Source of the DNA: Kribbella steppae
GTDB taxonomy: Bacteria > Actinomycetota > Actinomycetes > Propionibacteriales > Kribbellaceae
DNA length: 64,000 bases
Assembly: GCF_004342025.1 (NCBI RefSeq)
Contig: NZ_SLWN01000003.1
Location: forward strand, 496,001 to 560,000
Direction of reading: 5' to 3'
This document shows positions 8,546-58,135 of this stretch, one piece after another; the stretch's first letter is position 1; each line of letters begins with the position of its first letter. The notes under the pieces were generated by a model. The model made no database searches and was not told the origin of the DNA. It worked only from the letters and a program-made list of their open reading frames with translations. A program made the translations under genes and the position numbers.

Positions 8546-9375
8546 GTACTCCGACCATCCAGACCGAAGCCGGTCGTGAGGGCTGGGAGGCGATCGTCGC
8601 CGACCCGGCCACCGCGGTGATCTCGACGGACTTCGACGGCGTCCTGTCCCCACTGGTCGAGGACCCGGCCCGGGCTCGCCCGGAGGAGGGCGCTCTCGAC
8701 GCACTGGCCCGGCTGGCCGCCTCGGTGCAACAGGTCGCGATCGTCACCGGTCGCCCGGCCCTGGTCGCTACCGAGCTCACCGGTGTCACTGGCCACCCTG
8801 GTCTCGGGCGTCTCGTCGTACTGGGGCACTACGGGCTGGAGCGGTGGGAGGCGGCGACCGGGAAGGTGACGAGCGACCCGGTGCCGGCCGGCGTCGCCGA
8901 AGCGCGCTCCAGGCTTCCCGAGTTGCTGCAGGAGCTCGGGGTCCCTGATGCCTTCGTGGAGGACAAGGAGAGCTCGCTGGCGGTCCACACCCGTCGGCTG
9001 CCCGATCCGGTCGGTGCGTTCGAGAGACTGCGTACGCCGCTGACGGAGCTGGCCGAGTCGACAGAGCTGCGGCTGGAGCCGGGCAACCTGGTGCTGGAGC
9101 TGCGGCCGCCGGGTATCGACAAGGGAGTCGCTCTGCGCCGCCTGCTCGAGTCCACCGGTGCCCAGTCGATCCTGTACGCCGGTGATGACCTTGGCGACCT
9201 GGCGGCGTACCGGGCGATCGAGGAGCAGCGCAAGGCCGGTCTGCGCGCCGTACTGCTGGCCACCCGCTCCTCGAACGCGACCGAGCTGATCGAGGCCGCG
9301 GACATCGTGGTGGACGACCCGACCGGTGTGGTGACCGTGCTCACTGCGCTTTCGGACGCGATCGCCGCCCGCTGA
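8542..9375 (+). CDS. otsB: Trehalose-6-phosphate phosphatase
   Basis: 277 residues, HAD superfamily. It removes phosphate from trehalose 6-phosphate, the product of OtsA. HAD motif I is STDFDGVLSPLV (the nucleophile Asp and its +2 Asp), motif II VAIVTGRP, and the late acidic motif YAGDDLGDLAAYRAI coordinates Mg2+. GIDKGVALRRLL supplies the conserved Lys. The gene overlaps the LytR_C gene by 4 nt and its 3' end overlaps the convergent gene at 9341-9808 by 35 bp. Having otsA and otsB on opposite strands 3.5 kb apart means the two steps are not in one transcript. Confidence 0.95.
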   Translation: MSTPTIQTEAGREGWEAIVADPATAVISTDFDGVLSPLVEDPARARPEEGALDALARLAASVQQVAIVTGRPALVATELTGVTGHPGLGRLVVLGHYGLERWEAATGKVTSDPVPAGVAEARSRLPELLQELGVPDAFVEDKESSLAVHTRRLPDPVGAFERLRTPLTELAESTELRLEPGNLVLELRPPGIDKGVALRRLLESTGAQSILYAGDDLGDLAAYRAIEEQRKAGLRAVLLATRSSNATELIEAADIVVDDPTGVVTVLTALSDAIAAR

Positions 9376-9808
9376 ACGTCTGCGTCAGCGTCTGACCGAA
9401 CGACTGGATCGGCCGCTCGGCGTACCCGCCGTCCTTGAGGTTCGCGAGCCGCTCGAACGGGTTCCGCGACGCCGGGTCCCCGGTGAGCAACCACGAGACG
9501 ACGACCCCTACGACGTACATCGGCCACAACAGCAACCCGATCAGGCAGAAGTACTGCCACGAGTGCCGCTCCTCGTGCCGCACCAGCGCCTCGTCGTCGA
9601 AGTACGCGCGCTCATGCTTGCTGAGCACCACATTCCCGACCGTGAACGCCCCCGCGACCGGGAACGGGATCTTGTACCCGTTCGCGAACACCAACCCCCG
9701 AGGCCCCCAACTGAACCGAGCCCGCCCGATCACCCCCACCAGCAACCCGACGAGCGTCGACAGATTCAGGCAGTTCCCCACCACCTTCACCCACTGCCAC
9801 CCAGTCAT
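9341..9808 (-). CDS. Membrane protein of unknown function with HExxH motif
   Basis: 155 residues with at least two hydrophobic stretches (about 10-26 and 88-105). Between them lies EALVRHEERHSWQYF, an exact HExxH pattern. It could be a small metallopeptidase-like membrane protein, but the third zinc ligand cannot be assigned and the motif may be accidental. A polar tail (SGRRSRPKAQ) ends inside the 3' end of otsB. I do not recognise a named family. The divergent gene encodes Fic, 98 bp away. Confidence 0.72.
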   Translation of the reverse strand: MTGWQWVKVVGNCLNLSTLVGLLVGVIGRARFSWGPRGLVFANGYKIPFPVAGAFTVGNVVLSKHERAYFDDEALVRHEERHSWQYFCLIGLLLWPMYVVGVVVSWLLTGDPASRNPFERLANLKDGGYAERPIQSFGQTLTQTFSGRRSRPKAQ

Positions 9809-9858
9809 GCCTCAGTATCAGCCTGTCATGCGCCCGCTGTCTCGATGTCGCAATCAAG

Positions 9859-9903
9859 AGGACATCGGCAGTATCATGTCCTAAGAATTGAGACATTAGG
9901 ACA
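9859..9903. promoter_or_regulatory. Triple half-site operator in front of the Fic gene
   Basis: Three copies of one half-site in alternating orientation: AGGACAT (9859-9865), ATGTCCTAA (9876-9884) and TTAGGACA (9896-9903). They form two overlapping palindromes (AGGACAT-N10-ATGTCCT and TGTCCTAA-N11-TTAGGACA). The last half-site contains the AGGA of the ribosome site and ends 3 nt before the start codon. The arrangement fits autorepression by the wHTH of the Fic protein (inference). Confidence 0.6.
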
Positions 9904-9906
9904 CGA

Positions 9907-11070
9907 ATGACGATCTTCAGCACGCCGCAACCCGATCTCGAGGATCAGGAGGTCCTGGAGCAGATTCACGCGTTCCGGTCCGAGCTGGCCGACGTCCTAC
10001 GGATGCCACGGCGCTGGGTCGGCGGTCTGCGCCGAAGCATGCTGGCCCGGGCCATCCAGGGCTCGAACAGCATCGAGGGGTACGACGTCGAGCTGGACGA
10101 TGCTGCGGCCGCGCTCGACGACGAGGAAGCGTTGAGTGCCGACCAGCGGACCTTCGCCGAGATCCGGGGCTACCGGCAAGCGCTCGGGTATGTCCTGGCG
10201 ATGGCGAAGGACGACGACTTCCGGCTGGACGTGTCCGCCGTCCGCGGCATGCATTTCATGATGTTGAGTCACGACCTGGCCAAGAGTCCGGGCAGCTACC
10301 GGCAGGGCACTGTCTACGTCCATGACGAGACGACGGGGGAGAACGTCTACGAAGGTCCGCCGGCGGAGGAAGTGCCAGGTCTGGTTGCGGAACTCATGGA
10401 GGCGCTGGCCACTGACGGAGTGGTCGACCCTCTGGTCCATGCGGCGATGGCACATCTCAACCTGGTGATGATCCATCCGTTCCGCGACGGCAACGGGCGG
10501 ATGGCGAGGGCCCTGCAGACGTTGGTGCTTTCGCGAGGCGGCATCGGTGAGCCGGCATTCTCGAGTATCGAGGAGTGGCTGGGCAGCAACACCGAGGACT
10601 ACTACCGCGTGCTGGCCGCGACCGGTGCCGGAGCCTGGCATCCAGAGCGGTCGTCCGCGTTGTGGATCAAGTTCAACCTGCGCGCCCACCACATCCAGGC
10701 CCAGACCGTCCGGCGGCGCTATCGCGAGGCGGGCAAGTTGTGGTTGGCCTTCGACCAACTGATCGAGCAGTTCGGCTTGCCGGAACGGGTCGCCGACGAG
10801 CTGTTCGACGCCTCGCTCGGTTTCCGGATCCGCCGGTCGACCTATGTTCGCCGGGCCGAGATCGAGCAGCGGACGGCGACTCGGGACCTGGCCAGGTTGA
10901 CGGAGTTGGGACTGCTTCGGCCTGTTGGTGAGACCAAGGGCCGTCACTATGTGATGGGCGACCGACTCGTCGAGCTCGTGCAGAAGGCCCTGTCCAGCAG
11001 AGAACGGCTGGTCGATCCGTACCCCTGGATGCGCGAGCGCCTGGCGGGGGTGTCGACACCCGTGCGCTAG
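9907..11070 (+). CDS. Fic family protein with N-terminal inhibitory motif and C-terminal winged helix
   Basis: 387 residues. The Fic core motif HPFRDGNGRMAR (about 191-202) is complete, so AMP or another nucleotide transfer to a protein target is possible. Near residue 50, GSNSIEG matches the [ST]xxxE[GN] inhibitory-helix signature that keeps such enzymes auto-inhibited. The carboxy third (about 300-370) looks like a winged helix (IRRSTYVRRAEIEQR ... LARLTELGLL). The palindromic half-sites immediately upstream suggest the protein controls its own gene. No antitoxin gene is adjacent, consistent with intramolecular inhibition. The start is ATG with AGGA 5 nt upstream. Confidence 0.92.
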   Translation: MTIFSTPQPDLEDQEVLEQIHAFRSELADVLRMPRRWVGGLRRSMLARAIQGSNSIEGYDVELDDAAAALDDEEALSADQRTFAEIRGYRQALGYVLAMAKDDDFRLDVSAVRGMHFMMLSHDLAKSPGSYRQGTVYVHDETTGENVYEGPPAEEVPGLVAELMEALATDGVVDPLVHAAMAHLNLVMIHPFRDGNGRMARALQTLVLSRGGIGEPAFSSIEEWLGSNTEDYYRVLAATGAGAWHPERSSALWIKFNLRAHHIQAQTVRRRYREAGKLWLAFDQLIEQFGLPERVADELFDASLGFRIRRSTYVRRAEIEQRTATRDLARLTELGLLRPVGETKGRHYVMGDRLVELVQKALSSRERLVDPYPWMRERLAGVSTPVR

Positions 11071-11099
11071 TTGTCCGTGGGGTGGGTAAGACTTGGTGG

Positions 11100-12053
11100 G
11101 TGAGTTCGGGAGTGCGGGTTTGGCGGGCTGGGCGGGTGGTGGATCCGCATTCGGTGATTGGGGGGTTGCGGAAGGGGCCGGGGGATCCGGCGTATGTGTT
11201 CGATCCGGTACGGCGGACTGTGTGGCGGGCTACGCGGACGCCGGAGGGGCCGGTGCTGTTGCGGCTGACGCCGTACGCCTCGAATGGGGAGGTGGAGGCG
11301 GAGGCGTGGGGGCCTGGAGCTGGGTGGGCGCTGGATGGGGTGCCGGAGTTGCTGGGGGAGGCGGACAGCTGGGACGGGTTCGAGCCGTTGCCGGAGCACA
11401 AGGTGCTGGTGGATGCGGCGCGGCGGTTCCCGCATGTGCGGGTGCCGCGGACGCGGGCTGTGTTCGAGGCGATGGCCGCCGCGGGGATCGAGCAGGTTGT
11501 CACCGGCAAGGAAGCGTTCCGGGCGTGGCGGGTGATTCTCCGCGAGTACGGCGAGCCGGCGCCAGGACCGCAGCCGCCGGACGGACGCATCATGATGGTC
11601 CCGCCATCGCCGGAGGAGTGGCGGGTGATCCCCTCCTGGCAGTGGTTGCGGGCCGGCGTGGAGGGCCGCCGGTCGAGGGTCGTGATCACGGCCGCGACGC
11701 GGGCCAAGGCGTTGGAGCGGACGCTGGAGCTGACCGACTCGGCGGAGATCGAGCGGCGGCTGCGGTCGTTGCCCGGCGTCGGGGTGTGGACGGCCGCCGA
11801 GGTGCGGCAGCGGGCGCATGGTGACGCGGACGCCTTCTCGTTCGCGGACTATCACGTGTCGCGGGATGTCTCGTACGCCCTGATCGGCGAGGAACTCGAC
11901 GACGACGGCTGCGCCGAACTCATCGAGCCCTACCGCGGTCACCGCTTCCGCGTCCAGCGCCTCCTCGAGCTGACCGGCATCGGCCACCCGCGCTACGGTC
12001 CCCGCAAGTCCCTCCCGACCCACACCCCCGGCGCAACCCACCGTCTCCGGTAG
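11100..12053 (+). CDS. HhH-GPD family DNA glycosylase (AlkA-like)
   Basis: About 317 residues. Base excision: removes alkylated or otherwise damaged bases. The helix-hairpin-helix is LRSLPGVGVWTAAEV (about 230-245), followed by DADAFSFADYH, whose second Asp is in the position of the catalytic Asp of this superfamily. The amino domain (about 1-80) resembles the AlkA N-terminal beta fold. A frame opening at the GTG at 11082 exists; I prefer the GTG at 11100 because the family-like sequence (SSGVRVWRAG) begins there. The first 400 bases are unusually rich in G runs on the coding strand compared with the rest of the gene. Confidence 0.82.
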   Translation: MSSGVRVWRAGRVVDPHSVIGGLRKGPGDPAYVFDPVRRTVWRATRTPEGPVLLRLTPYASNGEVEAEAWGPGAGWALDGVPELLGEADSWDGFEPLPEHKVLVDAARRFPHVRVPRTRAVFEAMAAAGIEQVVTGKEAFRAWRVILREYGEPAPGPQPPDGRIMMVPPSPEEWRVIPSWQWLRAGVEGRRSRVVITAATRAKALERTLELTDSAEIERRLRSLPGVGVWTAAEVRQRAHGDADAFSFADYHVSRDVSYALIGEELDDDGCAELIEPYRGHRFRVQRLLELTGIGHPRYGPRKSLPTHTPGATHRLR

Positions 12054-19683: not shown

Positions 19684-20907
19684 CTACAGCCGGATTAGGT
19701 ACACCGTGGGTGGGCGGCCGGTGCGGCCGTGTTGTTGGCTGCCTATGGGGTCGGCCAGGCCGGCGCGTTCGAGGCGTTTCAGGACTCGGCGGGCGGTGCG
19801 GAGTTGGACGGCCAGGTGGTCGGCGACGTCCTGGGTGGTGAGGCCGTCGGGGAGGGTGGCGACGAGTTCGCGCATTCGGGCGAGGGTTTGGGTGTTCAGG
19901 CCGACCCGGCGGGCCAGCAGTGGCAGGCTTTCCGGGCCGCGTGCGGTCGCCGGCTGATCGCCGGTCGGCTCGATCACGATCTCCACGTCGTCCGACATCG
20001 ACACCACGCCGGCGACCGAACCGATCGAGGCTGCTCGGCTCACGGCGCGACGGGCGAGTGCTTCGGCTTCGGCCGCCGTGCGTCCGACGCCGAAGCCGAC
20101 GTACGCCGTGCTGTGCCTCGACGCGAGGTGGTCGAGCAGGGGCATCCGGGTGAACTGCTCGGTCGCTTGCTCGAGCACGCCGCGCGTGGTGACGACCAGA
20201 TGCCGGCCGTCGGGGAGAGCGGCCAGGCTGCCGCCGAGGGTGATCAGGTCGGCGGCCAGGGCGTCGTCCGGCTCGGGCAGGTCGATCACGCCGAGGGCGA
20301 CCTGGGCGTCGCCGACGTGCTGGCCGGTCGTGGTGAGGACGAGAGCTTGGAGGGTGGAGCGGATCGAGTACCGCGACGGCGCGAGCCGGACCGACGGCAT
20401 CTCGTTCTCGAGCAGGTGGAAGGCCGAGCCGAGGCAGCTGATCGCGACCTTGGTGTCGTGCTTCTCCCGCGCGGTGCGGTGGAACGCGACGATGTCGTCG
20501 GAGGTCAGGCCGGGCCGGTACGGGAGCACGTAGATCTGGTCGGTCGGCATCTTCGCCTCGATCAGCGTCTCCAGCACCTCACTGCGCCGCAGTGTGTCGA
20601 TCGAGAACTGGGTGACGTTGTGGCCGAGCCGGAGCAGTTCGACGAGTGCGCGCAGGAGGGTGGCGCCGTCGTACGAGACGTACATGGCCGGGCGGTCGAT
20701 CACGCCGGCCTCGGTGGCGATCGTGTACGGCACGACGCCGGTGAACAGGATCGCGTCCACCTTCTCGTGGGACCGCTCGACCACCTCGACCGCTTCGGTC
20801 TCGTGGTGATAGGGCAGCGGAACGAGGGTCGTGCCGCTCGGCGGACCGACCGCGATCACCCGCTGGACCAGGTCCTCCGGGCCGATGACACCGACCGTGA
20901 GGGCCAT
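19684..20907 (-). CDS. Putative transcriptional regulator with sensor domain and C-terminal winged helix
   Basis: 407 residues. Residues about 1-330 contain two alpha/beta modules: the first begins ALTVGVIGPEDLVQRVIAVG, and the second has STAYVGFGVGRTAAEAEALA, reminiscent of GTP cyclohydrolase III/GGDEF-type folds. I do not recognise a named family. The tail (about 335-407) is a clear winged helix (TTQDVADHLAVQLRTARRVLKRL, then RTGRPPTVYLI). As last gene of the enolase-DapA operon it is the natural candidate to bind the TTACGGTC palindromes found in front of the units of this locus. The ligand is presumably the locus substrate. Confidence 0.72.
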   Translation of the reverse strand: MALTVGVIGPEDLVQRVIAVGPPSGTTLVPLPYHHETEAVEVVERSHEKVDAILFTGVVPYTIATEAGVIDRPAMYVSYDGATLLRALVELLRLGHNVTQFSIDTLRRSEVLETLIEAKMPTDQIYVLPYRPGLTSDDIVAFHRTAREKHDTKVAISCLGSAFHLLENEMPSVRLAPSRYSIRSTLQALVLTTTGQHVGDAQVALGVIDLPEPDDALAADLITLGGSLAALPDGRHLVVTTRGVLEQATEQFTRMPLLDHLASRHSTAYVGFGVGRTAAEAEALARRAVSRAASIGSVAGVVSMSDDVEIVIEPTGDQPATARGPESLPLLARRVGLNTQTLARMRELVATLPDGLTTQDVADHLAVQLRTARRVLKRLERAGLADPIGSQQHGRTGRPPTVYLIRL

Positions 20908-20964
20908 CAGGCCACCGCTGGATTGATCTGCACGGCACTCCTCCGAAGACTTCTGGTCGGGCCC

Positions 20965-21927
20965 TTAAGTCGCAGGATAGTGGCTGAGCTCCTCGAGGCA
21001 GTGCACGACGAGTTCGCGCTCCTGACCGGGAACGTCCGGGCCGTACGGGTCGTGGGCCGCGTCCTCGGGGATCAGGCCCTCCCACACCGCGGCCCAGAGC
21101 ATCCGCTGCACGTAGCCCTCGATCGGCGCGTAGAAGGTCGCCGCGGCGAAGCGGTCCAGCCGGTCGGAGGCAGTCAGGAACGCACTGTGCTCGCCCGAGG
21201 TCCAGGTCCTCAACACTGCGGCGGAGAGCCCGACCTGAGCCGCAGCGATGCCCACCAGCGCGGTGTCGGCACCCCACATGAACGACGGCCCGAACATCCG
21301 GTCCTCACCGGTGATCAGCAGCTTGCCCGTACCGCGGCCGGCCCAGATGGCGTCCTGGCAGCCGATAGCGCGGTCCAGTGTGGCCGTCTTGACCCCGAGC
21401 ATGGCGTCCAGGCTCAGCAGGTCGCGGATGAGCTCCGGTGGGTACGGGTACCCGCCGGCCTCGCCGTGCAGGTAGAAGCCGACCAGCGGCAGCCCACTCT
21501 CGGCCGCAACCCGCTCATGCAGTGCAACAGCCTGCGCATGGCCGTCTGGCAACCCTCCAAGCGCTGCCAGCGGGTAGACCATCACCGCATCGGCCCCACC
21601 CGCTGCAGCCTGCACAGCCATCGCCACAGTGGCGTCTGCGGCCTCCTGGAGGGTCTGTGCCGGTTCAGACCGAGGTACGCCGACTCCGGCGACGATGGGG
21701 ACGTTAGTCACCTGTCGCCAGGTCTCCAGCACCTTGGAGCGGTCTCCTACGGACAGGTAGAGCCCACGGCCGGTGTGAGCCCAGACAGCGACGCCACCGA
21801 TGGGCTCCGCCGCGATCCGGCGCGCGTACGCGGTCAGAGCGTCGTACGCGATGACACCGTCGGTGTCCATCGGTGTGACGACAGCAGGAAGCAGTGTGCC
21901 GCGGAGTTGCTCAACGAGTGCGTGCAT
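20965..21927 (-). CDS. Dihydrodipicolinate synthase (DapA) family aldolase/dehydratase
   Basis: 320 residues, a TIM-barrel class I aldolase family. The Schiff-base Lys is in MLGVKTATLD, with the partner Tyr in VGFYLHGEAG. PAVVTPMDTDGVI is the standard opening strand. The position between an enolase-superfamily enzyme and an ABC importer makes sugar-acid or amino-acid-derivative catabolism (for example a keto-acid aldolase) more likely than lysine synthesis. The exact reaction is not predictable. It lies 8 nt behind the enolase gene and 57 nt before the regulator gene. Confidence 0.87.
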   Translation of the reverse strand: MHALVEQLRGTLLPAVVTPMDTDGVIAYDALTAYARRIAAEPIGGVAVWAHTGRGLYLSVGDRSKVLETWRQVTNVPIVAGVGVPRSEPAQTLQEAADATVAMAVQAAAGGADAVMVYPLAALGGLPDGHAQAVALHERVAAESGLPLVGFYLHGEAGGYPYPPELIRDLLSLDAMLGVKTATLDRAIGCQDAIWAGRGTGKLLITGEDRMFGPSFMWGADTALVGIAAAQVGLSAAVLRTWTSGEHSAFLTASDRLDRFAAATFYAPIEGYVQRMLWAAVWEGLIPEDAAHDPYGPDVPGQERELVVHCLEELSHYPAT

Positions 21928-21935: not shown

Positions 21936-23069
21936 TCAGACGTCGTGGCCGAGGCCTGGGCTCGTGGGTACGTCGATCCAGCCGTCGCAGTCGGCGAACA
22001 CGGTCGGGGCCAGCGGGTCCTCGTGCACCATCAGCGGCCCAACCAGGTCGGCTGCCACGGTCGCACCGGGTACAGCGGCGGCCAGGTGGACCGCGGCCAG
22101 TGTGGCCACCCCCAGCTCGGGCATCGAGCCTACCTTCACCGCCAGGCCCGCGGCCTCGGCTACGTTGGCGATTTGCAGGGCTCTGTGCAGCCCACCGACC
22201 TTGAGGATCTTGATGTTCAGTACGTCGGCCGCACCGCGCCGGGCGATCTCCAGAGCGTCCTGCAGCGAGTGCATGCTCTCGTCGACCATCAGGCGGACGT
22301 CGAGCCGCTCACGCAGCCGGACCAGGCCGGCCAGGTCCCAGCGGGGCAGCGGCTGCTCCAGTAGCGTCAGCCCAGCCTCACCCATCTTGGCCAGGTAGGG
22401 GAGCGCTGTGGCTGCGTCGTACCCCTCGTTGGCGTCCAGGCAGAGCTCTGCGTCGGCGGGGATGGCCGCGCGGACCGCTCGGATCAGCTCGAGGTCCTTG
22501 GCCGGGTCGTGGCCGCCCTTGACCTTCAGGTGCCCGAAGCCCTTGTCGGCGTACTCAGCCGCCTCGGCAGCCATCTCGTCCAGGGTGCCGAGCCCGACCA
22601 CCCAGGTGGTCTGCACTCGCTTCCTGATGCTGCCGCCGAGCAGGACATGCACGGGCCAGCCGCTCAGTCGCCCGGCCAGGTCGTACAGAGCGATGTCCAG
22701 GCCGGACTTGGCCACGTGCTGCCCGCGCAGTACGGCGTCCATCACCAGGTGGGCGCCGGCCCGGTCGAGCGGGTCATGTCCGATCAGCGCGGGGGCGAGA
22801 TGCTCCTCGATGGCGGCGGTGACACCGGCCAGCGTCTCCCCGGTGTACGCCGTCATCGGCGAGGTCTCACCGATGCCGATCGCGCCGTCGGCGGTGTGCA
22901 CCTCGACCACCAGGCTGATCAGCTCGGTGCTGATCCCGCTGCTGATCTGGAACGGGCGCCGGTACGTTGCACTGACCACTCGGGTCTTGATCGCGCTGAT
23001 CGGCCCCGAGCCGGTCTGTGCCGGTTCGGTTTGGGCCGGCAACCCGACCGGATGCGGTACGACACTCAA
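21936..23069 (-). CDS. Enolase-superfamily enzyme, muconate-lactonizing/dipeptide-epimerase subgroup
   Basis: About 377 residues from a TTG at 23067-23069 with GAGGAG 6 nt upstream. The longest frame begins at another TTG (23117) inside the operator and is less likely. The KxK pair (HLKVKGGHD), metal ligands Asp/Glu/Asp (LDANEG, EQPL, VDESM) and the second catalytic Lys (NIKILKVGG) are all present, so it should be active. Reactions in this subgroup include cycloisomerisation, epimerisation and dehydration. With the DapA-like aldolase it probably converts the imported compound. First gene of a three-gene operon. Confidence 0.88.
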   Translation of the reverse strand: MSVVPHPVGLPAQTEPAQTGSGPISAIKTRVVSATYRRPFQISSGISTELISLVVEVHTADGAIGIGETSPMTAYTGETLAGVTAAIEEHLAPALIGHDPLDRAGAHLVMDAVLRGQHVAKSGLDIALYDLAGRLSGWPVHVLLGGSIRKRVQTTWVVGLGTLDEMAAEAAEYADKGFGHLKVKGGHDPAKDLELIRAVRAAIPADAELCLDANEGYDAATALPYLAKMGEAGLTLLEQPLPRWDLAGLVRLRERLDVRLMVDESMHSLQDALEIARRGAADVLNIKILKVGGLHRALQIANVAEAAGLAVKVGSMPELGVATLAAVHLAAAVPGATVAADLVGPLMVHEDPLAPTVFADCDGWIDVPTSPGLGHDV

Positions 23070-23107: not shown

Positions 23108-23125
23108 TTACGGTCAAGACCGTAA
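23108..23125. promoter_or_regulatory. Operator A of the catabolic locus (divergent enolase/LLM promoters)
   Basis: Perfect inverted repeat with arms TTACGGTC and GACCGTAA separated by AA. It lies between the divergent enolase operon and LLM gene; its right arm merges with a TAAATA -10-like element for the plus strand. Sites at 27246-27263 and 29340-29357 share the motif. Confidence 0.7.
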
Positions 23126-23165
23126 ATACCGCGAGCGCTCTCTGTCAACGGAAGGTGGCACCCCG

Positions 23166-24131
23166 ATGCGGTTGGGTCTCTATCTGAACCTCTACGGCAC
23201 GCCGGACGAACGGCCGCGACTGGAGGACGCCGTAGAGCAGGCGCGGCTGGCCGAGCAGGCCGGGTTCGAGTGGATCGTGCTCGGCGAACGGCATCTGCAT
23301 CGGCCCGGATACCACGAGATCCTCACCTCGCTGACGTATCTGGCCGCCAAGACCGACCGGATCGGTCTGGCTACCTCGGGCATCGTGGCGCCGCTCTACG
23401 ACCCCGTCGTACTGGCCGAGACCCTCGCGCACATCGACGTACTGTCTGGCGGCCGGCTCACCGCCGGGTTCGTGCTCGGCTACCGGCCGGAGGAGTTCGC
23501 GCTGTACGGCGTGACGCAGGCCGAGCGGGTCGCGCGGTTCGAGGAGTGCCTGACCATCCTCACCCGGTTGTGGACCGAGGACGAGGTGACGTACGACGGC
23601 AAGTTCACCAGCATCAACGAGGCGTTCCTGTCGCCGCGACCCGTGCAGAGTCCGCGGCCGCGACTGTGGAACGGTGGCCGCGTCTCCGCCGTACTGGAAC
23701 GGACTGCCCGGATGTGCGACGGGTGGACGACGTCGTTCAACGAGCTGGACTCCGATCTGCCTGCGAAGATCGCGGAGTACCTGTCCTACCCGAGCGGCGA
23801 GGGCACGTTGGGTCGCGATGTGATCCTGTGCCGGGAGGGCTTCTGCGCCCCGACGTCGCAAGACGCGCGGCAGGCCCTCGAGGAGCCGCTGCGCGACCTG
23901 TACGACGCCTACACCGGCTGGAAGCGGACGTCGGCAGACGCGAGCCGCTACAGCCAGGGCTGGGACGAGATCGCCGCCCGCAGCGTCATCGGCTCGCCGG
24001 CCGAATGCGCCGAACGCCTCGCCCACTACGAAGAAATGGGTGCCGACGGCATCATCCTCCGCATCCAACCCCCCGGCCTCTCCCAAGCCGACACCCTCCG
24101 CTCCATCGAAGCCTTCGGAAACCTGGGCTAA
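23166..24131 (+). CDS. LLM class flavin-dependent oxidoreductase
   Basis: 321 residues, luciferase-like monooxygenase fold. It begins MRLGLYLNLYGTPDERPRLE, has WIVLGERHLHRPGYHEIL (flavin-side His region) and DVLSGGRLTAGFVLGYRPEEF, a typical LLM core. F420 or FMNH2 could be the cofactor; sequence alone does not decide. It is divergent from the enolase operon and shares operator A, so it is probably induced with the locus and may oxidise the substrate or a side product. The ATG has a GGAAGG ribosome site about 10 nt upstream. Confidence 0.88.
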   Translation: MRLGLYLNLYGTPDERPRLEDAVEQARLAEQAGFEWIVLGERHLHRPGYHEILTSLTYLAAKTDRIGLATSGIVAPLYDPVVLAETLAHIDVLSGGRLTAGFVLGYRPEEFALYGVTQAERVARFEECLTILTRLWTEDEVTYDGKFTSINEAFLSPRPVQSPRPRLWNGGRVSAVLERTARMCDGWTTSFNELDSDLPAKIAEYLSYPSGEGTLGRDVILCREGFCAPTSQDARQALEEPLRDLYDAYTGWKRTSADASRYSQGWDEIAARSVIGSPAECAERLAHYEEMGADGIILRIQPPGLSQADTLRSIEAFGNLG

Positions 24132-24136
24132 CCCGA

Positions 24137-24170
24137 CGCGTGCTACGCAGTCACTCCTGCGTAGCACGCG
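24137..24170. terminator. Bidirectional hairpin terminator between LLM gene and ABC permease gene
   Basis: Perfect 14-bp arms CGCGTGCTACGCAG (24137-24150) and its complement (24157-24170) around a 6-nt loop, filling the gap between two convergent genes. No U tract on either side. Confidence 0.75.
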
Positions 24171-24181
24171 GGGTGGGACTT

Positions 24182-25054
24182 CTAAGCCTTCAGGCCTGAC
24201 ATGGCGATGCTGTCTGTCAGGTACCGCTGCAACAAGCCGAAGACCAGGAGGCTTGGTACGACGGTGATGGTTGCGCCGGCCATGATCTGGTTGATCGGTA
24301 CTGCCTGGGTCTGCAGGGTGGCCAGGCCGACGGTCAGGGTCTGCATCTCGGCGGACTGGCCGATCACCAGCGGCCAGAGGAAGTCGTTCCAGTGCCACAG
24401 GAAGACGAAGATGCCGAGGGTGGCCAGTGCCGGCCGGATCAGCGGTAGCACGATCTGGGTGAAGATCCGCCACTCCGGTGCGCCGTCGATCTCGGCTGCC
24501 TCGAACAACTCGTCCGGCAGTTGGCTGATGAACTGCCGGAGCAGGAACACGGCCTGTGAATTCGCCAGCGTGGGCACGATGAGGCCCCAGTAACTGTCCA
24601 CCCAGTCGAGTCGCGAGACCAGGATGTACGACGGGATCAGTGTCGCCTGGAACGGCACCATCAGGGTGGCCAGGAAGGCCCAGAACATGATCTCCCGGCC
24701 CGGGAACCGCTTCTTCGCGAAGGCGTAGCCGGCCATCGCCGCGAACAGCAGGACGAACACCACCGACACCAGCGAGTAGAGCAGCGAGTTGACCGTCCAG
24801 CGCGGGATGTCAGAGCTGGACAGCACCCGGCTGAAGTTCTCGAAGGTGAAGCGGGTCGGGTCGAGCGCGTCCGGGAACGTCCGGCCGCTCGGCGGGGCGA
24901 ACGCGACCACCACCATCGCCGCGAACGGCAGGATGGTGACGATCGCGGTCAGCGTCAGCAGCGTCGGCAGGGTGAGCCGCGCGACCGGGCGCCGTTCCTT
25001 CTTCGGCGCCGGTGCCGCATCCTGCTGGCGCGGCCGTTCGAGCAGGTTCACCAT
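24182..25054 (-). CDS. ABC sugar transporter permease (CUT1, MalG-like)
   Basis: 290 residues from the ATG at 25052-25054. It has six hydrophobic helices and the cytoplasmic coupling motif ELFEAAEIDGAPEWRIFTQI (the EAA loop that docks the ATPase). The amino tail is basic and ends in the first helix LLTLTAIVTILPFAAMVVVAF. It is the second permease of the importer; its start overlaps the first permease's stop by one base (TGATG). No ATPase gene is present in the locus. Confidence 0.93.
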   Translation of the reverse strand: MVNLLERPRQQDAAPAPKKERRPVARLTLPTLLTLTAIVTILPFAAMVVVAFAPPSGRTFPDALDPTRFTFENFSRVLSSSDIPRWTVNSLLYSLVSVVFVLLFAAMAGYAFAKKRFPGREIMFWAFLATLMVPFQATLIPSYILVSRLDWVDSYWGLIVPTLANSQAVFLLRQFISQLPDELFEAAEIDGAPEWRIFTQIVLPLIRPALATLGIFVFLWHWNDFLWPLVIGQSAEMQTLTVGLATLQTQAVPINQIMAGATITVVPSLLVFGLLQRYLTDSIAMSGLKA

Positions 25055-25944
25055 CAGTCGTCCCTCCCGACCAACCGCCGCTGTACGAGCGAGACGATGA
25101 GCACGATCGCGAACAGCATCAGGCCGATCGCGCTGGCATAGCCGAAGTCGAAGTACTTGAAACCGCTGTCGTACAGGAAGTAGACGAGCGAGTAGCTCGA
25201 CCGGACCGGGCCGCCGCCGGTCATCACGTACATCGCGTCGAAGACCTGGAACGCGCCGATCGTCTCGATCACCAGCACGAAGAACAGCACCGGACGCAGT
25301 TGCGGCAGGGTGATGTAGCGGAACCGCTGCCAGGTGCCGGCGCCGTCGATCATCGCGGCCTCCAGGTACGAGCGCGGCACCGCCTGCAACCCGGCGAGCA
25401 GGATCAGCATCGAGTAGCCGAAGCCCTTCCAGGCCGACGTCACCGCGATCGACGGCAGCACCAGGCTGGACTCGGCGAGGAAGTCGACCGGGCCGATCGA
25501 CACCAGCCCGAGGACGGCGTTGATCAGGCCGTCCTGTGCGTCGTAGATCCACTTCCAGATCACCGCGGCCAGCACGATGCTGGTCACGTACGGCAGGAAG
25601 AACACGCCGCGGAAGAAGCCCCGCCGCCAGACCACCTGGTGCAGCAGTACGGCGGTGCCGAGCGACAGCAGCACGGTCAGCGGCACGAAGATCACCGTGT
25701 AGGTGAGGGTGACGGCGAGCGCCTGGTGGAACAGGTTGTCCTGGACCAGCCGGGTGTAGTTGTCGGCAGCAACGAAGGACCAGCGCCCGCTGAGCCGGTA
25801 GTCGGTGAGCGAGAGCAGCACGGCGCCGACCACCGGAACGAACCGGAACAGCAGGAACAGCGCCAGCATGGGGGCGACGAACAACAGCCCGACCCAGGGC
25901 CGACGGATGCGGTCCCGGGCCGGGCGGACGCTGACCTGGGTCAA
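25054..25944 (-). CDS. ABC sugar transporter permease (CUT1, MalF-like)
   Basis: 296 residues with six predicted transmembrane helices. The EAA coupling loop is SYLEAAMIDGAGTWQRFRYI near residue 190. The first helix is WVGLLFVAPMLALFLLF. It forms the heterodimeric membrane channel with the following gene product and receives substrate from the lipoprotein encoded upstream. It overlaps the binding-protein gene by 4 nt. Confidence 0.93.
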   Translation of the reverse strand: MTQVSVRPARDRIRRPWVGLLFVAPMLALFLLFRFVPVVGAVLLSLTDYRLSGRWSFVAADNYTRLVQDNLFHQALAVTLTYTVIFVPLTVLLSLGTAVLLHQVVWRRGFFRGVFFLPYVTSIVLAAVIWKWIYDAQDGLINAVLGLVSIGPVDFLAESSLVLPSIAVTSAWKGFGYSMLILLAGLQAVPRSYLEAAMIDGAGTWQRFRYITLPQLRPVLFFVLVIETIGAFQVFDAMYVMTGGGPVRSSYSLVYFLYDSGFKYFDFGYASAIGLMLFAIVLIVSLVQRRLVGRDD

Positions 25945-27209
25945 CGCTGTCTCGACAGGAGGTCGTTGCCCTGCTTGGCGGCGTCGTCGAGCGCCTGCTG
26001 CGGCGACTTCTTACCGGTCAGCACGGCCTGGATCTCGACGCTCAGCAGTGACATCACCTGGCGGGCGGACGCGTTCCGCTCACCCGCGTAGGTGTACTGC
26101 AGCGAGTCGGCGAACTTCTGTGCGGTCGGGTCGGTGATCGGCGCCTTCACGTCGGTGCGGGGGGTGAAGAAGCCCGACGCCTTGCTGAGCCCTTCCACCT
26201 GGGCCGGCTGGATCATGAAGGACAGGAACTTCTTCGCCTCGTCGATGTTCTCCGAGGCGGCGTTCACGGCCAGACCGCCGGGGATACCGAAGGCGACCTG
26301 CTTCTGGCCCGTCAGCGGCGTGCCGATCTCGACGTTGGCGGCCCCCCAGGTCGCCGCCACCGTCTTCGCGTCGGCCGGCGTACTGGTGAAGGCCATCGCC
26401 ACCTGCCCCTTGCCGAACGGCTGGTCGGCCACGAGGTTGCCGTTGGTCAGGGCACTCTTCGGGATCGCGCCCTGGTCGTACAGGGTCTTCAGGAAGGTGA
26501 GTGCCTCGAGCCCCGGCGCCTGGTTGAACGCCACCGTCTTGTTGTCGTCGGCGAACACCTTGCCGCCGGCCTGCCAGAGCAGCGGGTAGAAGTTCAGGTT
26601 CAGCGACGCCTCGGGCGACGCGGAGTAGTCCAGGGTCGAGAAGCCGGCCGCCTTGATCTTCGGCGCCGCGGCCTTGATCTCGTCCCAGGTCTCCGGTGGC
26701 TTGGTGATCCCTGCCTTGGTCAGGATCGTCTTGTTGAACATCGTGGTGGTGACGGTGTGGTAGATCGGCGCGGCGTAGACCTTGCCGTCGACGGTCAGGC
26801 CGGGGATCGCGGCCGGCAGGAACTTGTCCTTGTCCGCCTCGACCACGTCGTCGACCGGCTCGAACGAGCCGTTCTTGACGTACTGCGGCAGCTGGTCCGG
26901 GATCTGCAGGACGACGTCCGGGCCCTTCTTGCCGGCGAACGCGGCCGCGATCTTCTCGTCGCGCTTGTCCCACGGCTGCATCTCGAGCTTCAGGTCGATC
27001 CCGGAGTTGGCGGCCTCGAAGTCCTTCTCGACCTTCTGCCAGTACGCGTCACTGGCCGCCTGGTCACCAATCACCGGATACATCCAGAGCGTGATGGCCT
27101 TTTTCTCCGACGAGGCGCCCGAGTCGTCGCCGCCCCCACAGGAACTGAGAGCAGCGGCCAGCACGAGCGCCGTGAGTGGTGCCGCGATGCGGCGGACGGT
27201 GGATTTCAT
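25941..27209 (-). CDS. ABC transporter substrate-binding lipoprotein (carbohydrate type)
   Basis: 422 residues. The lipoprotein signal peptide ends in a lipobox with the modified Cys at SSCGGGDD. The mature part is a type 1 extracellular solute-binding protein (ITLWMYPVIGDQ at the start, DVVLQIPDQLPQYVKNG, AMAFTSTPADAK, and a carboxy helical region rich in aromatic residues). It captures the substrate outside the membrane for the two permeases. The ligand is unknown, most likely a sugar or sugar derivative. It is transcribed from the promoter at 27261-27290 and controlled by operator B. Confidence 0.94.
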   Translation of the reverse strand: MKSTVRRIAAPLTALVLAAALSSCGGGDDSGASSEKKAITLWMYPVIGDQAASDAYWQKVEKDFEAANSGIDLKLEMQPWDKRDEKIAAAFAGKKGPDVVLQIPDQLPQYVKNGSFEPVDDVVEADKDKFLPAAIPGLTVDGKVYAAPIYHTVTTTMFNKTILTKAGITKPPETWDEIKAAAPKIKAAGFSTLDYSASPEASLNLNFYPLLWQAGGKVFADDNKTVAFNQAPGLEALTFLKTLYDQGAIPKSALTNGNLVADQPFGKGQVAMAFTSTPADAKTVAATWGAANVEIGTPLTGQKQVAFGIPGGLAVNAASENIDEAKKFLSFMIQPAQVEGLSKASGFFTPRTDVKAPITDPTAQKFADSLQYTYAGERNASARQVMSLLSVEIQAVLTGKKSPQQALDDAAKQGNDLLSRQR

Positions 27210-27245
27210 CGCACCCCCTGGGTGTCCGGAAGTCAGGGTCCGGAA

Positions 27246-27290
27246 TAACGGTCAGGACCGAAAGTAGCTGGCTCGAATTTCGGCTGTCAA
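27246..27290 (-). promoter_or_regulatory. Promoter and operator B of the ABC importer operon
   Basis: On the minus strand: -35 TTGACA (27285-27290), 18-bp spacer, -10 TACTTT (27261-27266). The operator TAACGGTC-AG-GACCGAAA (27246-27263, plus-strand reading) overlaps the -10 and start point, where a repressor would block transcription. Confidence 0.7.
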
Positions 27291-29314
27291 CGGCTGATAT
27301 CAACTCGGAACAGCTCAGCGCCGTAAGTGAGCAGCAATTGGTGGTCGTTCCGGACGCCGAGCCGGCGGTGCGCCTTCTCGACGAACAGCGCCGGGGCCTT
27401 ACCCGGTGCGATCCGGAAGATCTTGTTCAGGTCGATGCTTACGTACACCGCCTCCCCGGTCGCGACGATGTCCCCGCTGGACGTCGTCGTCCCCAGGACG
27501 TAGGACTTGACCACCTTGCCGGAACGCGGGTCCACTGCGAAGGCGGTCTTGCCGGCGACACCCCAGAGCAGGCCGTCCGGGCCGAAGGCCACCGCGGACA
27601 CCGTGATCGCCCCGGGCACGGGCACGGTCTCCCACAACTTGCGGGAACGCTTGACGTCCCACGCGAAGACGGTGCCGTCGGTGCGGGTCGGTGGCGTGGT
27701 GGCGAGGCCGCCGACGATCGAGGTACCGCCGTAGACGATGCCGGCGCGGGCGGTGAGGCCGAAGACGCTCTCGTCCTGGACCACGTTGCGGATCCCCTGC
27801 GAGGTACCGGTCTTCGGGTCGTAGATGACGAGCGCGCCGCCGAGCCGGTCGCCGTCGGGAACGGTGCCGATCGCGATCTTGCCGTTCACCTCGACCAGCG
27901 CGCGGGCGCGGGTCTGCAGCAGGTCCGGCTTGAGGTTGAGCAGCAGTTTGGGGTTGTCCGGCGTACCGGGTGGTCCGGGGGAGTACTCCGGGCTGCTCCA
28001 CGGCTGGCTCTGGTCGTAGGAGTAGAGCCGGGCCTCCGGGTAGGCGCCGATCCAGAGCTTGCCGTCCGACCCCTCCAGCAGCGCCTCGACCTGCGAGAAC
28101 CGGTTGAAGGTGGCGTCGCCGGTGGCCGGGTCGACGACCGACACGCCGCCGTTCAGGAAGCCGCCGGCGTAGATCTTGTCCTTGCCGCCGGCCACGGACA
28201 GGATCTCGATCGGCTCCCGCCGTACCTGGGTCTGGAAGATCTCCGACTTGCCGGTCTGCGGGTTGTAGCGGAACTCCTCGCCGCGCCACAGGGTGCCGAC
28301 GATGCTCTTGCCCGGGTAGTCGGGCAGGTCGAGCTCGGCCCAGCCGATCGCGCGGGTGTTCTGGATCCGGCCGGTGAAGGTGAGGCCGGTGCCGGTCAGG
28401 GTTTTCGTTGCCGGGTCGTACTTCTTCAGCTCACTGGCCTGGATCAGGTAGATCTCGCCGTTGTCGCCGACCGGGGAGATGTCCAGGCCGTGCGCGTTCG
28501 GGATCTCGTCCACCCAGGTGCGGCTGGCGATGTCCCAGACGTACATCGGGCCGGGGAAGGCGGTGCTGATCCGGGCGTAGACCCGGCCGGCGCGCGTGTT
28601 CAGGTCGTACACGACCTTGTCGGTGGGGTCGCCGAGCCCGGGCGGCGACGGCAGTTCAGTGATCGCGCCGGACGCCACGTCGAGCTCCATGATGTGCGCG
28701 TCGGGCAGCGAACCGGTGTAGATCTTGCCGTTCGCGTAGTCGATGCTCTTGACGTACGGCTGGCCGGCCTTGACCTGGCCGTAGTCGCGGACCGCGCCGG
28801 TGGCGTGGTCGTACCGGAACACCTTGCCGTTCGGGAAGGTGCCGCCGTACACGTTGCCCTGTTCGTCGGTGGTGATCCGCCAGATGAAGCTCTCGGACGC
28901 GATCGGGCGGCCGAGGTCCTCGACCGTGTTCCCCGCACCGGGCTTCCAGCGGTAGAGGTGGCCGTTGTTGTACGTGCCGGCGTAGATGGTGCCGTCGGGT
29001 GTCGCGGCCACGGCGTAGCTGCCGTCGGCACCGGGCAGCGGCGCGGAGAGCAGGCTGGCGCCGGTGGCCGGGTCGATGGCGTTCAGGTACGCCGGTTTGC
29101 CGGTCGAGACGTTCCAGATCGCGGTCTTGCCGTTCGGGCCGGGCGCGACGGTGCCGCCGATCAGGAGTACGTCGGACAGCGGCGCACCGAGCGAGACGAC
29201 TGTCGGCGTCGGCGGGCCACCATCCTGGGCACTCGGCGGCTGGCCGGCGTCGGCGGGAGTGGTCAGGGTGCTGACGAGCAGGGCGGCGAGTGCCACCGCG
29301 ATGAGCGAGCGCAT
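27287..29314 (-). CDS. Secreted beta-propeller repeat protein
   Basis: 675 residues with a Sec signal peptide (LIAVALAALLVSTLTTPADA, cut before GQPPSA). The mature part is built from about ten blade-like repeats with recurring patterns such as IYAGTYNNGHLYRW, VYGGTFPNGKVFRY and IYTGSLPDAHIMEL, of the PQQ/NHL/WD40-like propeller class. No catalytic signature was recognised. It probably binds or processes an extracellular polymer or oligomer whose product is imported by the adjacent ABC system (inference from operator C, the same motif as operators A and B). Confidence 0.82.
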   Translation of the reverse strand: MRSLIAVALAALLVSTLTTPADAGQPPSAQDGGPPTPTVVSLGAPLSDVLLIGGTVAPGPNGKTAIWNVSTGKPAYLNAIDPATGASLLSAPLPGADGSYAVAATPDGTIYAGTYNNGHLYRWKPGAGNTVEDLGRPIASESFIWRITTDEQGNVYGGTFPNGKVFRYDHATGAVRDYGQVKAGQPYVKSIDYANGKIYTGSLPDAHIMELDVASGAITELPSPPGLGDPTDKVVYDLNTRAGRVYARISTAFPGPMYVWDIASRTWVDEIPNAHGLDISPVGDNGEIYLIQASELKKYDPATKTLTGTGLTFTGRIQNTRAIGWAELDLPDYPGKSIVGTLWRGEEFRYNPQTGKSEIFQTQVRREPIEILSVAGGKDKIYAGGFLNGGVSVVDPATGDATFNRFSQVEALLEGSDGKLWIGAYPEARLYSYDQSQPWSSPEYSPGPPGTPDNPKLLLNLKPDLLQTRARALVEVNGKIAIGTVPDGDRLGGALVIYDPKTGTSQGIRNVVQDESVFGLTARAGIVYGGTSIVGGLATTPPTRTDGTVFAWDVKRSRKLWETVPVPGAITVSAVAFGPDGLLWGVAGKTAFAVDPRSGKVVKSYVLGTTTSSGDIVATGEAVYVSIDLNKIFRIAPGKAPALFVEKAHRRLGVRNDHQLLLTYGAELFRVDISR

Positions 29315-29339
29315 GCGATGCCTCCGGTGGACGACCTAT

Positions 29340-29357
29340 TTACGGTCCTGTCCGAAA
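29340..29357. promoter_or_regulatory. Operator C upstream of the propeller gene
   Basis: TTACGGTC-CT-GTCCGAAA, 26 nt upstream of the ATG on the minus strand and next to a CACTTT element in the same relation as the -10 of operator B. Six of eight arm positions are symmetrical. Confidence 0.6.
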
Positions 29358-29442
29358 GTGAAGCGTTGGGTGCGTGGGGAAGTCAACCGCTCGGCCACAA
29401 TTGCCGGTTATGGCAGTCGCACTCGGTTTTCGGCCTCGGCCG

Positions 29443-54488: not shown

Positions 54489-55805
54489 ATGAGGTTTGAA
54501 CGATCACACACACGCAAGGCGGTCGCTCTGGCCGTCGCCGGCAGCTTGGTGCTGCTCGCATCCGCGTGTGGCGGTGACGACGGGAGCGGTGACGACAGCG
54601 GCTCGACCGGGGGAGCACTGGAGGGTCGCGGCCCGATCAACTTTGCCACCGGCAAGGACACCTCCGGGAACCTGACGAACCAGGTCGCGGCGTGGAACTC
54701 CCAGCACCCGGACGAGAAGGTCACGGTGACCGAGCTGCCCGAGTCTGCGGACCAGCAGCGGGCCCAGATGATCTCGAACGCCCAGATCAAGTCCGACGCG
54801 TTCAGCGTGCTGAACCTGGACGTGGTCTGGACCGCCGAGTTCGCCGCGAACCGCTGGATCACCGAACTGCCGGAGGACCAGTTCCCGGATCTCGGCAAGT
54901 TGCTGCCGTCGACGCTCGACACGGCCAAGTACAAAGAAAAGCTGTACGCCGTCCCGGTCACGTCCGACGGTGGTCTGCTGTACTACCGCAAGGACCTGCT
55001 GGACAAGGCAGGCGTGCAGCCGCCGAAGACCTGGACGGAGATGCAGGAGGCCTGCACGAAGGTCAAGGCGCTGCCCGAGGCCAAGTCGGCCAGCTGCTAC
55101 GCGGGTCAGTTCGAGAAGTACGAGGGCCTGACGGTGAACTTCTCCGAGGCCGTCAACGGTGCGGGCGGTGTCGTCGTCGGTGACGACGGCAAGCCGAACG
55201 TGGACACCCCGGAGGCGCTGGCCGGGCTGACCTTCCTGGTGGACGGCTTCAAGTCCGGGATGATTCCGAAGGCTGCCATCACCTACCAGGAGGAGCCGGG
55301 CCGCCGGGCGTTCCAGGAAGGCAACCTGATCTTCCACCGGAACTGGCCGTACGTGTACGCGCTGGCGGGCAAGACCGACGGTTCGTCGAAGATCGCCGGC
55401 AAGTTCGCGGTCGCGGCGCTGCCGGGCAAGGACGGCGCGGGTGTGTCCACGCTGGGTGGCCACAACTACGCGATCTCCGAGTTCACCAAGAACAAGGCGA
55501 CCGCGGCGGACTTCATCAAGTTCATGTCCAGCGAGGAGCGGCAGAAGGCGAACATCGAGAAGACCTCGCAGGCGCCGACCTGGGCTTCGCTGTACGACGA
55601 CCCCGCGCTGAACAAGCAGTTCCCGTACCTGGCTCCGCTGAAGGCCTCCATCGAGACCGCGAAGTCGCGGCCCAAGGTGGTCAAGTACGGCGATGTCACC
55701 ACGGCCATCCAGGAAGCGGCGTACGGCGCTCTGACCGGTACGACGCCACCGAAGGATGCGCTGGCCGACCTGCAGACCAAGTTGAGCACGCTCATCACGC
55801 AATGA
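54489..55805 (+). CDS. ABC transporter substrate-binding lipoprotein (alpha-glucoside/trehalose type)
   Basis: 438 residues. Signal peptide AVALAVAGSLVLLASACGG with the lipobox Cys. The mature protein starts with a Gly/Asp/Ser-rich linker, then a type 1 solute-binding fold (INFATGKDTSGNLTNQVAAW; VNFSEAVNGAGGVVVG; FIKFMSSEERQKANIEKTS). Family resemblance and the GH13 alpha-glucosidase nearby suggest trehalose, maltose or another alpha-glucoside as ligand. First gene of the operon. Confidence 0.94.
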   Translation: MRFERSHTRKAVALAVAGSLVLLASACGGDDGSGDDSGSTGGALEGRGPINFATGKDTSGNLTNQVAAWNSQHPDEKVTVTELPESADQQRAQMISNAQIKSDAFSVLNLDVVWTAEFAANRWITELPEDQFPDLGKLLPSTLDTAKYKEKLYAVPVTSDGGLLYYRKDLLDKAGVQPPKTWTEMQEACTKVKALPEAKSASCYAGQFEKYEGLTVNFSEAVNGAGGVVVGDDGKPNVDTPEALAGLTFLVDGFKSGMIPKAAITYQEEPGRRAFQEGNLIFHRNWPYVYALAGKTDGSSKIAGKFAVAALPGKDGAGVSTLGGHNYAISEFTKNKATAADFIKFMSSEERQKANIEKTSQAPTWASLYDDPALNKQFPYLAPLKASIETAKSRPKVVKYGDVTTAIQEAAYGALTGTTPPKDALADLQTKLSTLITQ

Positions 55806-55899
55806 CCGAAGCGGCGGGGCCGGCGCGGAGCTTCACCGCTGCGTGCCGGCCCCGGCCTGTCGCTGCCCGCCGGAAGCGGGCGGAAAGAAGGAGGCAGAG

Positions 55900-56964
55900 G
55901 TGAGTACATCCGCACCGGTCGCCCAGCGGCCGACGCCGGAAACAACCAAGAAGCCCAAGCGGAGCTCGTTCAACGAGGGCACCGGCCGGCTGGCCGCGCT
56001 GCTGTTGTCGCCGACCATGATCGTGCTGATCCTCGTCGTGGGACTGCCGATCCTGGCGGCGTTGCGCGAGTCGCTGTACCAGAGTGGTCAACGGATCGAC
56101 GAGTCGGGCTTCGTCGTCCAGGGCTCCGAATTCGTGGGTCTCGAGAACTACACGGCGATCTTCTCCGGCGAGACCGGCGAACGATTCTGGAACGCTTTCT
56201 ACAACACCACGTTCTTCACCGTCACTTGTGTGCTCCTGGAGACCACGTTGGGTGTCGCGATGGCCCTGGTGATGCACAAGGCGTTCAAGGGCCGCGGCAT
56301 CGTGCGGGCCAGCATCCTGGTCCCGTGGGCGATCCCGACCGTCGTCTCCGCGCTGCTGTGGAAGTGGATCTTCCAGGCCGACGGCATCGCCAACTCGATG
56401 CTCGGCACGCAGATCCTGTGGTCCACCGAGGGCTGGCAGTCGGTGCTGTCGGTCATCATCGCCGACACCTGGAAGACCGCGCCGTTCATCGGGCTGCTGG
56501 TACTCGCGGGCCTGCAGACGATCCCGGACGAGGTCTACGAGGCCGCCAAGGTCGACGGCGCCAAGGTGTGGTCGACGTTCATCCACATCACCATGCCGTT
56601 GGTGAAGCCGGCGCTGCTGGTGGCAGTGCTGTTCCGCATCCTCGACACACTGCGGATCTTCGACCTGCCGTTCGTGCTGGTCGGCCCGAACAAGGAGTCG
56701 GTCGAGACGCTGTCGATCCTGGCGTACCTCGAAGCCAACCAGACGCGGTACGGGCCGGCGGCGGCGTACGCGACCTTGCTGTTCATCTACGTCGCTGTGG
56801 TCGCCTACGTGTTCGTCAAGCTGCTGGGTGCCGACGTGTTCGGTGACGCCATCCAGCGGAAGGCGAAGAAGAAGGGCAGCAACGGGCGAGGCCGGGGCAA
56901 GCAGCAGGACCCGGGCGCCCCAGTGGCCGGACTGACCGCCGGTGGCGGCTTAGGAGGTGAATGA
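55900..56964 (+). CDS. ABC sugar transporter permease (MalF-like)
   Basis: 354 residues from a GTG at 55900 with AAGGAGG upstream; a frame opens earlier at 55843 but lacks support. It has a Pro/Lys-rich cytoplasmic start, six helices and the EAA coupling loop EVYEAAKVDGAKVWSTFIHI. The tail is unusually long and polar (Lys/Gly/Gln-rich, about 35 residues). It pairs with the next permease. Confidence 0.94.
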   Translation: MSTSAPVAQRPTPETTKKPKRSSFNEGTGRLAALLLSPTMIVLILVVGLPILAALRESLYQSGQRIDESGFVVQGSEFVGLENYTAIFSGETGERFWNAFYNTTFFTVTCVLLETTLGVAMALVMHKAFKGRGIVRASILVPWAIPTVVSALLWKWIFQADGIANSMLGTQILWSTEGWQSVLSVIIADTWKTAPFIGLLVLAGLQTIPDEVYEAAKVDGAKVWSTFIHITMPLVKPALLVAVLFRILDTLRIFDLPFVLVGPNKESVETLSILAYLEANQTRYGPAAAYATLLFIYVAVVAYVFVKLLGADVFGDAIQRKAKKKGSNGRGRGKQQDPGAPVAGLTAGGGLGGE

Positions 56965-57839: not shown

Positions 57840-58023
57840 GTTTGTTCCGCAACCGGGCGGATCGGACCGCCGCGACCGGGATGACCGGGCGCGGCGGGAC
57901 CGCGAAGACCGGGAGCGGAGGGACCGGGAGGAACGCGATCGACGCGATCGTGAGGACCGGGACCGATGGGAACGAGAGGAACGGGACCGCCGCGACCGAG
58001 AAGCCCGCGCCCGCTTCCGCTAA
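57836..58023 (+). pseudogene. Small Arg/Asp/Glu-rich ORF with an apparent one-base deletion
   Basis: A GTG at 57836 overlaps the permease stop (GTGA), giving MSLFRNRADR. Then the frame with sense turns by one base near CGGACC (57863-57868) and reads DRRDRDDRARRDRED..., ending ARARFR at TAA 58021-58023. One inserted G (CGGGACC) would join the parts into a 62-residue protein made almost only of Arg, Asp and Glu. In the uncorrected frame the composition changes abruptly to Thr/Ala/Gly. Either a sequencing error or a true frameshift. The function of such charged tails is unknown. Confidence 0.6.
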
Positions 58024-58029
58024 CAGTAG

Positions 58030-58061: not shown

Positions 58062-58135
58062 TTGCTTTGTGCGCAGGCCTTTGGTGGTGGCGGTCGAGAC
58101 GGTTTGAGGGTTGTCCGAGGGCACATCTAAAGTGA

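Follow-up and report, generated by a model that had tools for sequence, protein, structure and literature searches.

The 64-kb stretch of DNA analyzed in this work (referred to below as the window) contains an island of genes, most of whose assignments were obtained from Pfam, NCBIfam and structure models. The minus strand encodes a regulator protein of 407 aa (19684–20907), which we will refer to as R1, an aldolase of the DHDPS/N-acetylneuraminate-lyase superfamily (20965–21927; Pfam, NCBIfam) and an enolase-superfamily protein of the muconate-cycloisomerase/dipeptide-epimerase subgroup (21936–23069). Divergent from the last of these, on the plus strand, is the gene for a luciferase-like (LLM; F420/FMN) oxidoreductase (23166–24131; Pfam, NCBIfam). 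It is followed, again on the minus strand, by the genes for an ABC importer, viz. permease 2 (24182–25054; Pfam, NCBIfam), permease 1 (25054–25869; start uncertain), which is homologous to the permF genes of other islands, and a solute-binding lipoprotein of the carbohydrate (CUT1) type (25941–27209; Pfam, NCBIfam), and then by the gene for a secreted protein (27287–29314, minus strand), for which the structure model (pLDDT 90) predicts a double seven-bladed beta-propeller. This fold resembles those of numerous unrelated double propellers and hence does not point to a function for the protein, and a PDB sequence search returned no relative of either the propeller or the regulator. The enolase-superfamily gene likely starts with the TTG codon at 23069, which is preceded by GGAG, and the families closest to its product are the muconate cycloisomerases and dipeptide epimerases. 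The sequences LKVKGG, LDAN, LEQP, MVDES, and NIKILKVGG are seen in this protein, and we take the KxK, DAN, EQP, VDES, and IKILK motifs within them to be the usual catalytic motifs. The enzymes of these islands (Gfo/Idh, amidohydrolase/lactonase, enolase-superfamily dehydratase and aldolase) would fit a sugar-acid route of the non-phosphorylative type, which stays a guess because the enolase-superfamily protein is nearest to the cycloisomerases and epimerases. Elsewhere in the window (54549–60294), a second, unrelated-looking sugar ABC importer is followed by an alpha-glucosidase-like gene, and the palindrome described below is absent from this region.

In the structure model of R1 (pLDDT 87), residues 1–198 have the fold of the PrpR_N sensor domain (PDB 2pju, Z 17.4, rmsd 2.6 Å over 181 residues, Foldseek E 1.6e-6; 2q5c, Z 17.8), residues 199–315 resemble the palm domains of cyclases, Cas10 and GGDEF proteins (Z 9–10), and residues 325–406 form a winged helix, with the helix-turn-helix (HTH) at residues 344–386. 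The identity of R1 to PrpR (2pju) is 13%, and a Pfam sequence search of R1 gave no PrpR_N match, the sensor being assigned by its predicted fold. Above the cut-off, Pfam finds only an HTH family in the 407 aa of R1, GTP cyclohydrolase III (GCH_III) matches are present in 7 of 33 R1 homologs, and the full arrangement was not named by any Pfam or NCBIfam model. From the modeled fold we infer that the N-terminal domain may sense a small molecule. A placement of R1 in the GntR/HutC family was rejected because its winged helix is C-terminal and the GntR family scored 12 bits with a cut-off of 27; no UTRA match was found either. R1 was likewise rejected as a sigma-54 activator because the AAA+ sigma-54 interaction domain was not found in it by Pfam.

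The window was searched with an 18-bp pattern, TTACGGTCNNGACCGTAA, consisting of two half-sites arranged as TTACGGTC-NN-GACCGTAA, and up to three mismatches were allowed. Exactly three matches were found, where 0.11 are expected by chance, and none of 100 shuffles reached this number. The first of them (23108–23125; TTACGGTCAAGACCGTAA) is a perfect palindrome with no mismatches, which is located between the divergent enolase (minus) and LLM (plus) genes. The second (27246–27263; TTTCGGTCCTGACCGTTA, read on the minus strand) and the third (29340–29357; TTTCGGACAGGACCGTAA, also read on the minus strand) contain two mismatches each, and they lie 5′ of the importer operon and of the propeller gene, respectively. 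Three palindromes sharing a consensus at these positions, and no such site elsewhere in the window, is also what the initial annotation had reported, and both statements are borne out, the second of them at up to three mismatches; a possible weak operator with four mismatches (20951–20968, minus strand; TTCTGGTCGGGCCCTTAA on the plus strand), which lies directly 5′ of the R1 gene, was not in its list. The position of this degenerate version is kept in the relatives of the window.

The whole genome of this Kribbella, a soil bacterium (9.15 Mb), in which the window is a part of contig C3, was scanned both with patterns and with sequence models. At up to three mismatches, the pattern matched 24 places and a reversed control pattern matched eight. 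A model built from 40 sites recognized exactly seven places at 17.6–23.2 bits, of which three belong to the window and four lie outside it, with the next score at no more than 12.3 bits; the training sites of this model included Kribbella sites, these seven among them. When the model was built from non-Kribbella sites only, six of the seven ranked first, the place on C2 scoring just 13.9 bits; the site at the R2 propellers (see below) was not recovered by this model, which placed an additional weak site 5′ of R2. The four places outside the window are located 5′ of the gene for a second solute-binding protein, which has amidohydrolase- and DegT-like neighbors (C4:69602), before propeller genes (C2:329041 and C6:554630), and between the gene for R2, a paralog of R1, and two tandem propeller genes (C4:96982). 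Of the five propeller paralogs in this genome, four have the site in front of them and the fifth stands in tandem after one of these, and each strong site in this genome precedes a gene of a few recurring families. One further place with two mismatches (C7:419294) was taken as a chance match because it is intragenic and scores with neither model. Hence the scan with the consensus, which had been proposed along with the initial annotation, yielded seven strong places followed by a gap in the scores, and the motif is not randomly placed. The reading of the locus as a regulon, in which each transcription unit of the island has an operator in front and R1 is the likely binder, is supported, the latter by the comparative evidence given below, but the regulon is dispersed and not self-contained as had been supposed, because four strong sites are distant from the island (three at propeller loci and one at a solute-binding-protein operon) and R2 is found at one of them.

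The gene content of other loci was also examined. A larger version of the island in other species (L132:2820–5468 and 8625–10923; also L133 and L157) contains two DegT/DnrJ/EryC1 aminotransferases and several amidohydrolases; in the genome of the window such aminotransferase and amidohydrolase genes are present at separate operator-bearing loci on C4 (L012, L136), as if the island had been split. In one Kribbella species, LacI-, NagB-, NagA-, and Gfo/Idh-like genes, named by the appearance of their sequences, are found in the neighborhood of the regulon (L134:6662–9658 and 10096–11295), hinting at a possible amino-sugar connection. A GntR-like gene is present at another locus (L167), at a distance of several genes from the site-bearing units.

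The search for related loci gave 62 of them, and the 25 from outside Kribbella (from Streptomyces, Actinomadura, Murinocardiopsis, Nocardia, Prescottella, and Tamaricihabitans) were used for a palindrome scan; these 25 were picked for carrying the regulator, and therefore the counts that follow show association and not independence. In an unbiased scan of every 6-mer palindrome with spacers of 0–8, TTACGG-N6-CCGTAA ranked first, being present at 17 loci with 0.01 expected. At up to two mismatches the site is found at 24 of the 25 loci, and shuffled palindromes gave a mean of 0.03 sites. It is located directly 5′ of the regulator gene in Actinomadura, Murinocardiopsis, and several Streptomyces, between the LLM and enolase genes in Actinomadura (TTACGGTCTAGACCGTAA), between the LLM and aldolase genes in Streptomyces (TTACGGTCCGGACCGTAA), beside the serine-dehydratase and aldolase-type genes adjoining the regulator in Nocardia and Prescottella (TTTCGGTCAGGACCGTAA), and 5′ of both the importer and the propeller in Tamaricihabitans. 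Across these genera the half-sites are constant, and the center of the site and the gene order vary. Palindromes can form hairpins and are numerous in G+C-rich genomes, and the three sites of the window might accordingly be a product of chance or a repeat at the DNA level (e.g., a terminator or a mobile palindrome) with no regulatory role. We regard this as extremely improbable in view of the small number of matches expected in the window, the genome-wide excess over the control pattern with its clear gap in scores, the conservation of the sites across genera at equivalent promoter positions with variable centers, and their placement relative to –35 boxes (see below). The palindrome is a real, specific and conserved predicted operator.

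Relatives of the regulator are also found in Firmicutes, where they adjoin enolase- and aldolase-like genes. As this proximity extends even to the Firmicutes, it suggests that the regulator has long been associated with pathways of this type. When the surroundings of the Firmicute homologs were searched for palindromes, no clear candidate emerged, and the operator was not traced there. At two Firmicute loci (L202:8835–16717 and L198:9983–13892), the regulator relatives are found beside genes for an M20 hydrolase and an enolase-superfamily protein, and the former locus also contains an aldolase and an ABC importer. No relative of the regulator was found in viral contigs.

The genome of the window contains, besides R1, two homologs of this regulator, R2 (47%; on contig C4) and R3 (32%). 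Among 38 Kribbella genomes, R1 is present in 30, R2 in 25, and at least one of the two in 31. Strong sites, defined in this survey by E ≤ 0.1, were found in each of the 31 genomes with R1 and/or R2, and the seven genomes lacking both regulators contain none (1/C(38,7) = 8e-8, a figure in which phylogeny is ignored). When the plain pattern was used and two mismatches were allowed, genomes with the regulator contain a mean of 6.1 sites vs. 0.86 in those without it (Mann–Whitney p = 4e-5, ancestry being ignored), and the reversed control pattern does not track the presence of the regulator. For most of the Kribbella R1 orthologs, a TTTCGGTCAAGACCACAA-type site is present immediately 5′ of the regulator gene; in the window and its nearest relatives this is absent and the degenerate version at 20951–20968 is found instead. 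In the Kribbella islands examined, the palindrome with no mismatches recurs between the enolase and LLM genes. Two genomes are informative in this regard: G005 has lost the propellers and retained both R1 and the sites, whereas G010 has R2-type propellers, neither R1 nor R2, and only a remnant of the site with four mismatches. Further, R1 and R2 have in common a nearly identical recognition-helix region (RTARRVLxRLERAGLAD), and in R3 (C1:875437) this region differs (RTGRRMLKELVEAGLAW) and no palindrome is present within its 12-kb region. The exact partition of the genomes, the frequent presence of the site before the regulator gene, the contents of G005 and G010, and the divergence of R3, which lacks the site, from the helix region of R1 and R2 together make a strong comparative case for R1 and R2 as the predicted binders of the palindrome. 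R3 may have a separate operator of its own; its gene adjoins amidohydrolase- and glutamate-1-semialdehyde-aminotransferase-like genes (L140:5438–6751).

The placement of the sites bears upon the mode of control. On the minus strand, the importer promoter reads TTGACA (27285–27290), 18 bp, and TACTTT (27261–27266), as had been noted initially, and operator 2 overlaps this –10 element, the palindrome beginning inside it. A TTGACA box (23143–23148, minus strand) is likewise present in the promoter of the enolase–aldolase–regulator unit, and a –35-like TTGACT (29381–29386, minus strand) in that of the propeller gene; in the LLM direction, a TTGAC –35 was not seen at the site. Among 147 oriented upstream regions of 80 nt each, 58 of the 67 TTGAC boxes start 22–29 nt 5′ of the site and the remaining nine lie elsewhere in the 80 nt. 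Because of this spacing the site is placed on the –10 region and the start point, and the likeliest mode of control is therefore repression by occlusion of the –10 region. PrpR, the best-known protein with the sensor fold of R1, is an activator, and it is conceivable, also in view of the LLM side, that R1 binds the palindrome as an activator position rather than as an occluding operator. We consider such activation unlikely, since the spacing puts the site on the –10 and start point and not upstream of the –35 box, and since the –35 boxes of these promoters are near consensus.

Based upon these observations, the palindrome is very probably the operator of R1, a one-component repressor, and of its paralog R2, joining the island with the four distant loci. 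According to this model, a dimer of R1 would grip the two CGGTC half-sites by means of its C-terminal winged helices and cover the –10 region, thus keeping off the enolase–aldolase–regulator operon (which includes R1 itself and is preceded by the operator in the window), the LLM gene, the importer operon, and the propeller gene. R1 would be released when its PrpR_N-fold domain senses a small molecule that originates from the substrate as imported or as processed. The same operator would tie in the three distant propeller loci, one of which is the R2 locus, and the second solute-binding-protein operon. We have counted against the model that the regulator gene of the window is itself preceded by just a four-mismatch site and that a TTGAC –35 is missing at the site on the LLM side. 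It also seems rather likely, with less assurance than for the operator, that R1 belongs to an unnamed family of one-component repressors, built from a PrpR_N-fold sensor, a cyclase/GGDEF-like palm, and a C-terminal winged helix, which extends from actinobacteria to Firmicutes and in the latter adjoins homologous enolase and aldolase genes, and that the multi-locus regulon under the control of R1 in Kribbella deploys secreted double propellers together with a dedicated importer. The motif, the regulator and the regulon were not found described in the open-access literature that was searched. An uncharacterized regulator family thereby gains a concrete and testable candidate operator, and orphan families, viz. 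the secreted double propellers, enolase-superfamily enzyme, aldolase, LLM oxidoreductase, DegT aminotransferases and amidohydrolases, are joined in one predicted regulon that is conserved across actinobacterial families and could be used for finding the substrate.

In comparison with known systems, residues 1–198 of R1 have the sensor fold of PrpR, the regulator of propionate catabolism, but R1 is without the sigma-54 AAA+ domain of that protein and its sites lie on sigma-70-like –35/–10 promoters. The middle palm of R1 is similar in kind to the GGDEF-like domain which CdaR/PucR-type regulators combine with a C-terminal HTH_30; R1 was rejected as a regulator of this type, Pfam HTH_30 being found neither in its full list of families nor among the 25 highest-ranking families for 33 homologs. 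The LacI-family local repressors of actinobacterial sugar importers, such as CebR, are one-component regulators with a palindrome over the promoter and autoregulation, and CebR-type regulons bring together secreted proteins and a CUT1 importer. The system predicted here would be alike in all of these respects, although R1 belongs to another protein family with another domain order, having its winged helix at the C-terminus and a palm domain between this and the sensor.

At the DNA level there is a resemblance to the dre sites of DasR/NagR (GntR-HutC) in Streptomyces, which have a GGTC-NN-GACC core palindrome like that of the sites here and whose multi-locus regulons include importers of sugars and genes for extracellular degradation (PMC4398421), as is also predicted here. 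The DasR consensus is A(G/C)TGGTCTAGACCA(G/C)T (PMC4398421), and because of the similarity of the CGGTC-NN-GACCG core to the DasR element TGGTCTAGACCA, with agreement in the GGTC half-site and the 2-nt center, we have retained as a rival the proposal that a GntR/HutC-type factor encoded elsewhere binds the palindrome, with R1 as a bystander; the importer, which is of the sugar type, would also agree with this. Such a binder is nonetheless very unlikely, since the sites in Kribbella follow the presence of R1/R2 exactly and also precede the R1 gene, no GntR-type gene is present among the site-bearing units of the islands examined, and the conserved outer half-site here is TTAC/GTAA and not the A(G/C)T of DasR. 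R1 itself differs from DasR/NagR in that it has no N-terminal GntR domain above the Pfam cut-off and its HTH is C-terminal. By analogy, the predicted system, with R1 and R2 as its repressors, may work in the manner of a local LacI- or GntR-type repressor.
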